Source: Simiduia agarivorans SA1 = DSM 21679 (GTDB lineage Bacteria; Pseudomonadota; Gammaproteobacteria; Pseudomonadales; Cellvibrionaceae). Taken from it: a DNA stretch of 64,000 nt. Numbering within the stretch: the first letter of the stretch is position 1; every line of letters begins with the position of its first letter. Made by a program: the position numbers and the translations under genes. The notes beneath the pieces are model-generated. The model saw only the letters and a list, made by a program, of their open reading frames with translations, made no database searches and was not told the DNA's origin. Location: the NCBI RefSeq assembly GCF_000305785.2, contig NC_018868.3, positions 2,142,001 to 2,206,000 of the forward strand, given 5' to 3'. Positions 3,077 through 6,523 of the stretch are shown one piece after another.

Positions 3077-3622
3077 CTACCGGTATAGCCCGAACTGGTC
3101 GATCAACTGCGCTACCTCAGCGGGCAAAAGTGCGACAGGCACCGATGCGCCGGCCGCAATCGCGTCGCGCACTGCGCTTGAACGCACATTGACCCGCTCT
3201 TCCACCACCAGCGTTTGCCAGCGCGCATCGATATCCTCGTGTCGGTAAAATTTTTGCCATTGGGCTGGATTGGCGTTATCGGGACCTATCGCCAGGCAGA
3301 TCCGGGCATCCGGATGCCGCTGCTGGGTCTCTTGTAAAAGATCCCAGGAGTAGATGGGATCTTCCGCGGCTTTCGCTGCCGCTAACCGCTGTTCACTCAG
3401 ATCCACTTCAACCCGCGTCGGTGGCAAAGAAACCGACGCGAGCGCGGCCTTTACCATGGCCACCCGCTGCGCAAAGGGCGCCATGGTTTTGCCAAACGCA
3501 TGGCGATAGGACGGCACCACCAGCACGCGGTCCACCTGCGCCAACAACTGTGCGATGGCATCCAGATGGCCTGCATGCGGAGGGTTGAACGCGGCACCAT
3601 ACACGGCAATTTTTTCAGTCAT
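3077..3622 (-). CDS. NadD-like nucleotidyltransferase
   Basis: 181 residues of the nucleotidyltransferase alpha/beta phosphodiesterase superfamily. The nucleotide-binding signature GAAFNPPHAGH (residues 9-19) contains the HxGH pair, and VRSSAVRD near the C-terminus takes the place of the usual ISSTxIR. The end LIDQFGLYR resembles NadD, so nicotinate-mononucleotide adenylyltransferase activity (NAD synthesis) is the best guess. However, it is shorter than typical NadD (about 210) and is not beside holA or rsfS, where the housekeeping nadD sits in many gammaproteobacteria. It may be a paralogue with another substrate. It starts 24 bp after the M56-M23 gene on the same strand and may be co-transcribed with it. 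Confidence 0.7.
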   Translation of the reverse strand: MTEKIAVYGAAFNPPHAGHLDAIAQLLAQVDRVLVVPSYRHAFGKTMAPFAQRVAMVKAALASVSLPPTRVEVDLSEQRLAAAKAAEDPIYSWDLLQETQQRHPDARICLAIGPDNANPAQWQKFYRHEDIDARWQTLVVEERVNVRSSAVRDAIAAGASVPVALLPAEVAQLIDQFGLYR

Positions 3623-3646: not shown

Positions 3647-5104
3647 TCAATAGACGCGCGGCATGCGTTCATCGGCAAGCGCCGCTCGCGCAGCTGGCTT
3701 GACCGGAAAATCAATGAAACGGGCGGGGTCCAGCCGATCATCGCCCGACAGTATTTCGAAATGCAAATGCGGGCCGGTGACTTTACCGGTTTCGCCCACG
3801 GCGCCGATCAATTGCCCGGCACTGACATTGTCACCCGCCGCCACCACCCGGCTGTCCAGATGCGAATACAATGAACGCAGACCGTTGGCGTGCTCAATAA
3901 TGATCAGCTTGCCATAGTTAACCCGATTGCCGTACACGTCGGTGGATACCAGCACCCGACCGTCAGCAGCGGCGACAATGGGTGTCCCTTTGGCAATCGC
4001 GAGATCGATGCCATTGTGAAAGCGCTCGGTTTTCTGTCCAAAAGACGAACTGACCCGCGCGCTGGGTACCGGATGCTGAAACACCACCTCGCGCATTTCA
4101 TCCGCCACCGCGATCAAGGGTTGCAGCACTACACTCGCGCACAAGAGAGAACCGGCGCCTGCACCAAACCACCACTGCTGATGACGAGACACACCGGGGC
4201 TTTTTCTGACAATCCGACCTAAACGCATTTTGATGTCCTTATGGGTTGGGGAATGAAACGCCGGCATAACGGGCGCAGGTACTGCGGAAGTCTGGGTAAT
4301 TAACGCCAACAGAGTACGGGCATAGAGCGCGGACTTGCCGGGCCGTTTACGCAACACGGTCGCGTCGCAGTCCAGCTCAATCGCCGCCAGCAGCTGGCGA
4401 TTCAAACGCAGGTAGAAAGGATTAAACCAGGCCAGCGCCGACAACAGGTGCAGCACCAGCACCCATTGGTGATCCCGCCGCTTGATGTGAACCCACTCGT
4501 GCCGCAAGACTAATTGCAGGGCACTGAAATCCAACGCCTCAAGGCTGGCATAGCTCATAACCAAACGCGGCCTGACCAGCCCGAATACAAAAGGCGACAC
4601 CTTGTGCCGGGCAAACACGATGCGAACACCGGTGGCACGCGACAAGCGACGGCACAGCGTTTGCGCGCGCGCCGGCACAGGGCCGGAAGCCGACACATTA
4701 AAGTGACGATTCAGGTGCCAGACACCTGCCAATACCCGCACGAAACGAAAGCCACCGATCAGAGCGACCAGGCCAACCAACAGGGTAAATAGCAGGGGCA
4801 ATACAGCCTTGCCTGGCTGCCTCGCCACCGGTTCGCCGAGCGCCACTTCCCACCTGCCTGCGCCCTCTGTCATCAACGGCGGCAGCTGGACGACGGGCTC
4901 AACCAGTACGGGCACAGGTAACAACCCCAGCACGCCGGGCAACCAGCACATGAGCACGGCAAACATCCAGAACCGTCGCCAGGCCGCCGTTGCCTCCCAG
5001 CGCGACTCGGCCCATCGGGCGGCCGCCATCACCAGAGCCGAAAAAGCCAGAAAGCAACAACAAAACCACCCAATGGCACCAACAAGACTGTGCCACTCAA
5101 TCAT
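3647..5104 (-). CDS. BlaR1-like M56 peptidase fused to M23 (LytM) endopeptidase
   Basis: 485 residues from ATG at 5104, whose codon overlaps the blaI-like stop by 8 bp (ATGATTGA). Earlier in-frame starts would sit deep inside blaI. Predicted membrane segments lie near 8-28, 45-66, 101-120 and 312-335. An M56 domain lies between the last two, with zinc motif HEWVH (202-206) and downstream ELDCD (243-247). After the last membrane segment, where BlaR1 carries its beta-lactam sensor, there is a periplasmic M23 domain. It keeps all zinc and catalytic residues: H363 and D367 (FHNGID), H416, and H446/H448 (GPHLHFE). The protein is therefore predicted to be both a cell-wall endopeptidase and an antirepressor protease. 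M23/M56 proteins are known as an architecture; the coupling of wall cleavage to BlaI control is inference. Confidence 0.85.
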   Translation of the reverse strand: MIEWHSLVGAIGWFCCCFLAFSALVMAAARWAESRWEATAAWRRFWMFAVLMCWLPGVLGLLPVPVLVEPVVQLPPLMTEGAGRWEVALGEPVARQPGKAVLPLLFTLLVGLVALIGGFRFVRVLAGVWHLNRHFNVSASGPVPARAQTLCRRLSRATGVRIVFARHKVSPFVFGLVRPRLVMSYASLEALDFSALQLVLRHEWVHIKRRDHQWVLVLHLLSALAWFNPFYLRLNRQLLAAIELDCDATVLRKRPGKSALYARTLLALITQTSAVPAPVMPAFHSPTHKDIKMRLGRIVRKSPGVSRHQQWWFGAGAGSLLCASVVLQPLIAVADEMREVVFQHPVPSARVSSSFGQKTERFHNGIDLAIAKGTPIVAAADGRVLVSTDVYGNRVNYGKLIIIEHANGLRSLYSHLDSRVVAAGDNVSAGQLIGAVGETGKVTGPHLHFEILSGDDRLDPARFIDFPVKPAARAALADERMPRVY

Positions 5105-5471
5105 GATCGTTGGCCTCGAGTAAACGCTCAAGGTCTTCGATTTCATCCGGACTCAGCAACGCGCTGTCGGCAAACATTGCCACCGGTAACGGCCCCTTCA
5201 CCTCGAGTACTGTGCGCGAAAAATCCTTGGCCAGCGCGGCCAGCGTTTGCACTTTGCTTTGCGCCGCGCTGAACACTTTGATGCCATGCACTTCGCCGGC
5301 ACGGATCAACGCTTTATCCAGCATCCGGTCCAGGGTTTTGCGGGTGGAGGAGAACGACCACTGCAGCTCTGGCGCCACGCGCTCATGCACTTCCCGGGCA
5401 CTCAGAGGCGACTGACGCCAGAGCGCCTTCATTAGTGTCAGCTCGGTGGCAGACGGCTTGGTGGATTCCAT
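5097..5471 (-). CDS. BlaI/MecI family transcriptional repressor
   Basis: A 124-residue winged-helix protein (MESTKPSATELTLMKALW...), the normal length of BlaI/MecI. The helix-turn-helix segment includes LSAREVHERV and SSTRKTLDRML. The start at 5471 is chosen because GAGG lies 9 nt upstream; longer TTG (5516) and ATG (5489) starts lack a good ribosome site and would run into the palindrome. The stop overlaps the M56-M23 start, as in blaI-blaR1 pairs, so the peptidase is probably translationally coupled and acts on this repressor. A 30-bp perfect palindrome with a central ACATATGT lies 42 bp upstream and is the likely autoregulatory operator. Confidence 0.88.
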   Translation of the reverse strand: MESTKPSATELTLMKALWRQSPLSAREVHERVAPELQWSFSSTRKTLDRMLDKALIRAGEVHGIKVFSAAQSKVQTLAALAKDFSRTVLEVKGPLPVAMFADSALLSPDEIEDLERLLEANDHD

Positions 5472-5512
5472 GGTGTTTAACCTCGACATGACATGCGGCT
5501 GGAAACAGAGTG

Positions 5513-5542
5513 GCAATCATGCGACATATGTCGCATGATTGC
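5513..5542. promoter_or_regulatory. 30-bp perfect palindrome, probable BlaI operator
   Basis: All 15 base pairs of the two arms match: GCAATCATGCGACAT followed by its reverse complement. The core ACATATGT is the core of BlaI/MecI/CopY operators. A weak -35/-10 pair for blaI (TTGCAA 5539-5544, CATGAT 5516-5521, 17-bp spacer) would be covered by the palindrome, consistent with repression. Confidence 0.75.
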
Positions 5543-5806
5543 AACAAACGCATTCAACAAACCCATGCAACTACCAGATCAGCGCCCATGCCAGTACAGC
5601 AGAATATCCGGGTTGACTGGACGCCGCGACAGAGCTGCAAGGCACATCAATATTTTTCATCCTTTAATCCACTCAATAACCATTTCCCATCAGATCTCAG
5701 GTTAATCAATTACCAAAAATTCAAATTATTTGATCAATAAGCGCAATATTCTCCGTTATACACTGCTGTCGCACAGCGGTAAGCTGCATGCCATCAATCA
5801 GGCGAG
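5543..5806. other. AT-rich intergenic leader before pirin gene
   Basis: Together with the palindrome this forms the 344-bp gap between blaI and the pirin gene. It is markedly more AT-rich than its surroundings, especially 5640-5760, and contains a TATACA hexamer at 5757-5762 that could be a -10 for the pirin gene, without a clear -35. No gene longer than a few tens of codons is convincing here. Confidence 0.4.
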
Positions 5807-5815
5807 GTGCCCCAT

Positions 5816-6523
5816 ATGCTTTACCATCGACCTTCATCGAGCCGCGGCAGGGCCAGTTTCGGCTGGCTGGACAGCAAACACTCCTTTTCATTTGGCCACT
5901 ACTACGACCCTGAACACATGGGTTTTTCCGCACTCAGGGTGATCAACGATGACCAGGTAAAGCCGGGCGCCGGGTTTGACACTCACGGCCACAGGGACAT
6001 GGAGATCATTTCCTACATTCTGGAAGGCGCCATTGCCCACAAGGACAGCATGGGTAACGCGTTCGTCGTGCCCGCGGGCGAAGTGCAGCGCATGAGCGCA
6101 GGCACGGGTATAACCCACTCGGAATACAACTATTCAGCCACCGAGCCGTTGCGCTTTCTGCAGATCTGGATTCAGCCGAATCAGCGCGGCATTGCGCCCG
6201 GTTATGAACAGAAAGCCATTGCGCAAACCGCCCCACTCACGCCACTGGTGACACCCGACGGCCGCGGCGACTCACTGACCCTGCAACAGGATGCCAGCAT
6301 CTATCGTTTGGTGCTTGAGCCCGGTGCAGCCATTGACCTGGATACCCGCCAACGCCCAGGCTATCTGCACCTCATCGACGGTCGCGCAGAAATCGCCAAT
6401 GGCGATGAAAAACTGGCGCTGAACGCTGGCGATGCACTGGGCGCCTATCAGGAAAAGCTGAGCGTTACAGCCGCGGAGGGCAAACTGACCGCACTCTGGT
6501 TTGATTTGCCGGCAGCCGCCTGA
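5816..6523 (+). CDS. pirin family protein (YhhW-type quercetinase-like cupin)
   Basis: 235 residues of bicupin pirin type. ATG 5816 is preferred over GTG 5807 because GAGG lies 8 nt upstream and the N-terminus MLYHRPSSSRGRASFGWLD then aligns with Escherichia coli YhhW. The four metal ligands are at H57, H59, H101 and E103 (DTHGHRDME and GTGITHSEYN), the same positions as in YhhW. Such enzymes open flavonol rings (quercetin 2,3-dioxygenase activity) in vitro; the natural substrate is unknown. The stop overlaps the start of the next permease gene by one base (TGATG), so the two are co-translated. Confidence 0.9.
   Translation: MLYHRPSSSRGRASFGWLDSKHSFSFGHYYDPEHMGFSALRVINDDQVKPGAGFDTHGHRDMEIISYILEGAIAHKDSMGNAFVVPAGEVQRMSAGTGITHSEYNYSATEPLRFLQIWIQPNQRGIAPGYEQKAIAQTAPLTPLVTPDGRGDSLTLQQDASIYRLVLEPGAAIDLDTRQRPGYLHLIDGRAEIANGDEKLALNAGDALGAYQEKLSVTAAEGKLTALWFDLPAAA

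Follow-up and report, generated by a model that had tools for sequence, protein, structure and literature searches.

A BlaI-type repressor gene and an adjoining gene that fuses an M56 protease to an M23 peptidase lie in a stretch of 64,000 nucleotides from Simiduia agarivorans SA1 = DSM 21679 (contig NC_018868.3, positions 2,142,001 to 2,206,000; here called the window), and we propose, with a probability of about 0.52, that the two form a self-repressed switch of the BlaI/BlaR1 type. BlaI would bind a palindrome ahead of its gene and so hold down its own operon. The fusion would sit in the inner membrane with M56 in the cytoplasm and M23, its active site complete, in the periplasm, at the place of the beta-lactam sensor of BlaR1. 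Once M23 engaged peptidoglycan or its fragments, M56 would be freed to cut BlaI before a conserved phenylalanine, and this cleavage would derepress the operon. Comparison and modelling support the parts, the topology, the co-conservation of blaI, the operator and the pairing of this chassis with an OXA-type module elsewhere. We infer that peptidoglycan is the signal, that its engagement drives M56 and that BlaI binds the site and is cleaved, the peptidoglycan reading being drawn from what M23 domains do. The genes and sites of the operon are as follows.

3647 to 5104, minus strand: M56-M23 fusion, 485 amino acids (PF05569 and PF01551; structure model with a mean predicted local distance difference test score, pLDDT, of 85.4)
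5097 to 5471, minus strand: blaI-like repressor (PF03965, 68 bits, cut-off 22.6); ATG at 5471 preferred, ATG at 5489 possible
5513 to 5542, no strand assigned: perfect 30-bp palindrome GCAATCATGCGACATATGTCGCATGATTGC upstream of blaI
5520 to 5535, no strand assigned: 16-bp conserved operator core TGCGACATATGTCGCA, which recurs before blaI in other species and families

The initial annotation had proposed a blaI-like gene beside an M56-M23 fusion, and this pairing is real, with all three Pfam profiles above their cut-offs: the Penicillinase_R domain places the repressor in the BlaI/MecI family, and the fusion scores 95 bits with PF05569 (cut-off 31) and 107 bits with PF01551 (cut-off 28.7). The 8-bp overlap and the perfect palindrome that it described are also there, the start of the fusion and the stop of blaI sharing ATGATTGA (5097-5104). 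The TTG listed as the start of blaI falls within the palindrome; homologues favour the ATG at 5471. Within the 485-residue frame the HEWVH motif and the M23 ligands are intact, as had been noted, and the following segments can be placed.

4487 to 4501, minus strand: M56 active site HEWVH, residues 202-206, counterpart of BlaR1 H201EXXH
4223 to 4282, minus strand: residues 275-294, counterpart of the BlaR1 autocleavage loop (F283) and the domain-swap Arg294 (R294)
4097 to 4186, minus strand: fourth membrane helix, residues 307-336 (hydropathy peak at 315-333; a helix in the model; the BlaR1 alignment extends to its residue 326)
3695 to 4072, minus strand: M23 domain in the sensor position, residues 345-470, with ligands H363, D367, H446 and H448, plus H415

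Both H202EXXH and E243xxxD of the M56 domain are invariant in a 43-row alignment, which is the HEXXH and EXXXD pair of antirepressors of the BlaR1/MecR1 type. The four M23 ligands are likewise invariant, and H415 is kept in at least 90% of rows; with HxxxD and HxH zinc ligands and a further catalytic histidine, the domain apparently has the residues of an active endopeptidase. Homology and the structure model support a topology of four membrane helices with a cytoplasmic M56 protease and M23 outside the cytoplasm, in line with the earlier suggestion that M23 replaces a BlaR1-type sensor. The fusion is of BlaR1 build and, judged by its domains, is not a BlaR1 proper: M23 stands where the class D-like penicillin-binding sensor would be, and NCBIfam blaR1_generic reaches 44.8 bits (cut-off 400) in a match confined to the M56 part.

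The source genome is a single contig of 4.30 Mb, and the nearest named homologues of the fusion are from Simiduia. We collected 36 fusion loci. Eighteen of 145 relatives contributed 19, that of the window included, and draws in another family and in the phylum yielded the other 17. In a survey of the class the architecture was found in 2 of 229, only a lower bound because at most seven candidates per genome were scored and M23 proteins swamp such a survey. A scan of genome contigs gave three Lachnospiraceae M56 matches.

A blaI gene stands directly upstream of the fusion on the same strand in all 36 loci, so the co-conservation on which the initial annotation had partly depended holds. In an alignment with MecI, a phenylalanine of the window's BlaI coincides with the P1' residue, Phe102, of the cleavage site described in PMC9834060, where direct cleavage of BlaI is reported for BlaR1. 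This phenylalanine is kept in 36 of 36 BlaI partners; it is missing from the second BlaI of the source genome. Its conservation, together with that of the protease residues, points to direct cleavage as in BlaR1 and argues against another mechanism, in which, as proposed for Bacillus licheniformis, a wall dipeptide in the cytoplasm is sensed by BlaI itself and the role of the fusion is limited to helping to produce it. According to PMC3305447, binding of a peptidoglycan dipeptide to BlaI/MecI destabilises their complex with DNA; for the present system we consider this mechanism very improbable.

Assuming equal base frequencies, a palindrome like that ahead of blaI is expected about 0.004 times by chance in a 4.3-Mb genome, and even with three mismatches tolerated the inner 24 bp have a single match in the source genome. 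We rejected the 30-bp length as a conserved feature because it is the 16-bp core that recurs; comparison supports this core as a predicted operator, presumably bound by BlaI. Exact TGCGAC-N4-GTCGCA precedes the operon in 17 of 36 loci, and several others have different palindromes in a similar layout. In 17 genomes chosen for carrying the fusion, exact TGCGACANNTGTCGCA occurs 17 times, 16 of them before blaI-M56-M23 operons (in G062 a deacetylase gene lies between the site and blaI). The seventeenth, in G840, precedes a blaI-M56-OXA pair followed by a gene for a subclass B3 metallo-beta-lactamase. Since the motif was derived from some of these loci, what is informative is the near-absence of exact sites elsewhere and not their presence at operons. 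With one mismatch 10 more sites appear elsewhere, which we regard as background, since 19 sites match the reversed control when up to one mismatch is allowed. We rejected a large regulon in the source genome, as TGCGACANNTGTCGCA has only one site there within that limit.

Some relatives carry alternative half-sites (TACTAC-N3-GTAGTA, CTACA-N1/2-TGTAG, TTACA-N2-TGTAA and TGTGACA-N2-TGTCACA); when one mismatch is allowed, a genome-wide search of 12 genomes finds the first no more often than its reversed control. A near variant is present in L069, and in L060 one CTACA-type site lies ahead of the esterase gene. No clear site was seen in L059, L125 and L128.

The operator also led to relatives of the system in another family, f220, where the exact sequence occurs 49 times in 39 of 195 genomes (reversed control, 1). 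All 49 sites were inspected, mostly with 4.5 kb on each side, and 45 were assigned to a locus type. Seventeen lie at 16 blaI-M56-M23 loci and 10 at loci of M56-OXA proteins, proteobacterial receptors with a class D beta-lactamase-type module (L133, L180, L189, L196, L201, L202, L204, L207, L208 and L209). One site (L194) precedes a B3 metallo-beta-lactamase gene, two (L181 and L199) directly precede TonB-dependent receptor genes without blaI, and one (L203) is at a rearranged blaI/M23 remnant. In this remnant blaI and M23 sequence share one short open frame, followed by a TonB-receptor gene. The 16-bp palindrome is also present at thiolase-like/TRAP-transporter (tripartite ATP-independent periplasmic) loci, namely L165-L176, L178 and L179; the contig of L173 stops short of the TRAP gene.

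In all ten M56-OXA proteins the first active-site motif of the class D-type module reads STFN, and a BlaI-type repressor gene adjoins eight of the ten genes, with B3 or OXA-type genes near some. These comparisons support, in f220, an M56 chassis, repressor type and operator like those of the M56-M23 loci with an OXA-type module instead of M23. In a 73-row tree of the M56 part, whose rows were gathered through M56-M23 queries or the operator so that other M56 kinds are thinly sampled, the OXA rows form a single clade (100/100), nested in an f220 clade (100/100) to which M56-M23 rows also belong; long branches call for caution in this tree. A 43-row tree keeps the OXA group inside M56-M23, not significantly; a separate f220 M56-M23 clade is not rejected by the approximately unbiased (AU) test (p 0.216), so we did not retain an origin of M56-OXA inside M56-M23. 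Two M56-OXA genes, L189 (G1126) and L196 (G1104), have the operator and no blaI in the stretch, and the other full-length blaI genes of these genomes lack that operator; the repressor of the M56-M23 operon is therefore the best candidate to serve them. G978, considered as a case where that repressor alone could serve a B3 gene, was weakened by a second repressor there behind a near variant, TGTGACATATGTCACA.

These loci also bear on whether M23 is an effector rather than a sensor, that is, a wall endopeptidase anchored in the membrane, its level controlled through its own M56/BlaI loop in response to another cue. Degenerate M23 domains exist among activators, and the fully intact ligands of the fusion contrast with them; the operator occurs once in the source genome, and therefore more fusion protein would be the main output. 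Near the 36 operons we also found a further M23 gene in one relative (L055) and a polysaccharide deacetylase gene in four. Against an effector role, the same slot in f220 holds an OXA-type module, the kind that acts as the sensor in BlaR1, and the f220 operons carry a separate gene, for a TonB-dependent receptor. We regard an effector role as unlikely.

Receptor genes were sought by phmmer with five TonB-dependent receptors as queries. They lie directly downstream of M56-M23 in 16 of 16 f220 loci and 5 of 8 f57 loci. No such gene follows directly in the family of the window (0 of 19 loci), at the 8 other M56-M23 loci or at the 10 M56-OXA loci. Pfam confirmed the identity of the receptor genes in 10 of 10 run, two of them the blaI-less ones. 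PF00756 esterase genes stand near 8 of the 36 operons and M1 peptidase genes near 4 (in both cases on the other strand in L057), and the esterase compared, that of L059, resembles BES and IroE; a PF00144 gene was a single case (L124). Because relatives' neighbours are thus TonB-dependent receptors or secreted hydrolases, M23 might instead sense an imported molecule (a peptide, a muropeptide from other cells, or a siderophore-like or antibiotic compound), with the system controlling uptake and breakdown. The operator directly before two receptor genes without blaI is in keeping with this. The own-family count of 0 of 19 speaks against it, and the window's operon itself has no TonB receptor, esterase, deacetylase, M1 peptidase, extra M23 or PF00144 gene; we judge an imported ligand improbable, to much the same degree as an effector role.

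Several observations weigh against the wall-sensing switch. Binding or cleavage of peptidoglycan by this M23 domain, and any movement of M56 that it causes, are presumed, and the frequent receptor gene in f220 and f57 may mean that the ligand is imported. M56 genes commonly stand beside blaI in general (11 of 16 blaI loci surveyed), so the co-conservation marks the module and not a role of M23. F283 is invariant in the 43-row alignment, yet falls outside the columns conserved at 90% or more in a 15-row alignment, and the model is of low confidence at residues 68-96, where BlaR1 has the external loop by which its sensor is blocked. Regarding the operator, the looser pattern TGCGAC-N4-GTCGCA gave 12 sites in 9 genomes, 11 of them at the operon, with 6 still in the reversed control; 14 of the 49 f220 matches are at the thiolase/TRAP locus without blaI, where another regulator may use the palindrome. 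A search for a sigma-70-like promoter at 5440-5820 found none, and the one terminator-like element, against 0.4 expected, is the palindrome itself.

The other neighbours of the operon add one further feature.

3077 to 3622, minus strand: NadD-like nucleotidyltransferase (PF01467), 24 bp downstream of the fusion

Its position is as the initial annotation gave it. We dropped it as a partner because, among 18 loci, it was found beside the fusion in the window only and in none of the 17 others; it is probably an incidental neighbour. A pirin-like gene (window 5807-6523, plus strand) is divergent from the blaI operon. Elsewhere in the source genome a second blaI-M56 pair (L002 and L004, C1 at about 3.00 Mb) encodes an M56 protein that ends in a TonB C-terminal domain (PF03544) and adjoins a gene for another TonB-domain protein. 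Considered as part of the same system, this pair was set aside as probably separate because another palindrome, TGCTAATTTTTTAGCACAGTGCTAAAAAATTAGCA, precedes its repressor gene.

It has long been asked how bacteria monitor the state of their own wall, and this module may let a cell sense its wall or wall fragments instead of a drug. Tentatively, and with more doubt than the switch itself, we suggest a catalytic wall-fragment receptor, in which an enzyme does the sensing for a proteolytic gene switch. One lineage would have kept the chassis, repressor type and operator and swapped the wall-cutting for a beta-lactam-binding module, giving a BlaR1-like drug receptor independent of that of Staphylococcus. 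Where both occur they may share one BlaI regulon, so that one repressor would receive both wall state and drug as inputs, and a TonB-dependent receptor may enable the module to detect also peptidoglycan released by other cells. On this view beta-lactam receptors can arise when a wall-linked receptor exchanges its outer module, and in some bacteria one repressor may serve both a beta-lactam receptor and a wall-linked input. Because an apparently active wall enzyme and a protease of the repressor-cutting type are in one chain, the module is directly testable with one gene, one repressor and one operator.

No functional account of the M56-M23 architecture was among the matches listed in our literature searches, which do not cover most subscription papers. 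Close homologues carry the NCBI product name "M23/M56 family metallopeptidase", which denotes the same domain architecture and is a name only. The best-known counterparts are BlaR1/MecR1 with BlaI/MecI of Staphylococcus aureus and Bacillus licheniformis, which resemble the system in the four membrane helices, the M56 gluzincin protease, the conserved catalytic and domain-swap residues and an adjacent BlaI with the cleavage-site phenylalanine. Unlike them, the fusion has M23 in place of the C-terminal beta-lactam-binding domain, and no beta-lactamase gene is among the genes of the window's operon. The f220 M56-OXA receptors (L133 and nine others) have M56 parts in one clade with f220 M56-M23 and the same operator; they differ in the class D beta-lactamase-type module, and none of the ten is followed by a TonB-dependent receptor gene. 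With M23 endopeptidases of the LytM, ShyA and StM23 types the M23 domain shares its fold and zinc ligands, whereas in the fusion it is tethered to the membrane and joined to an M56 protease.
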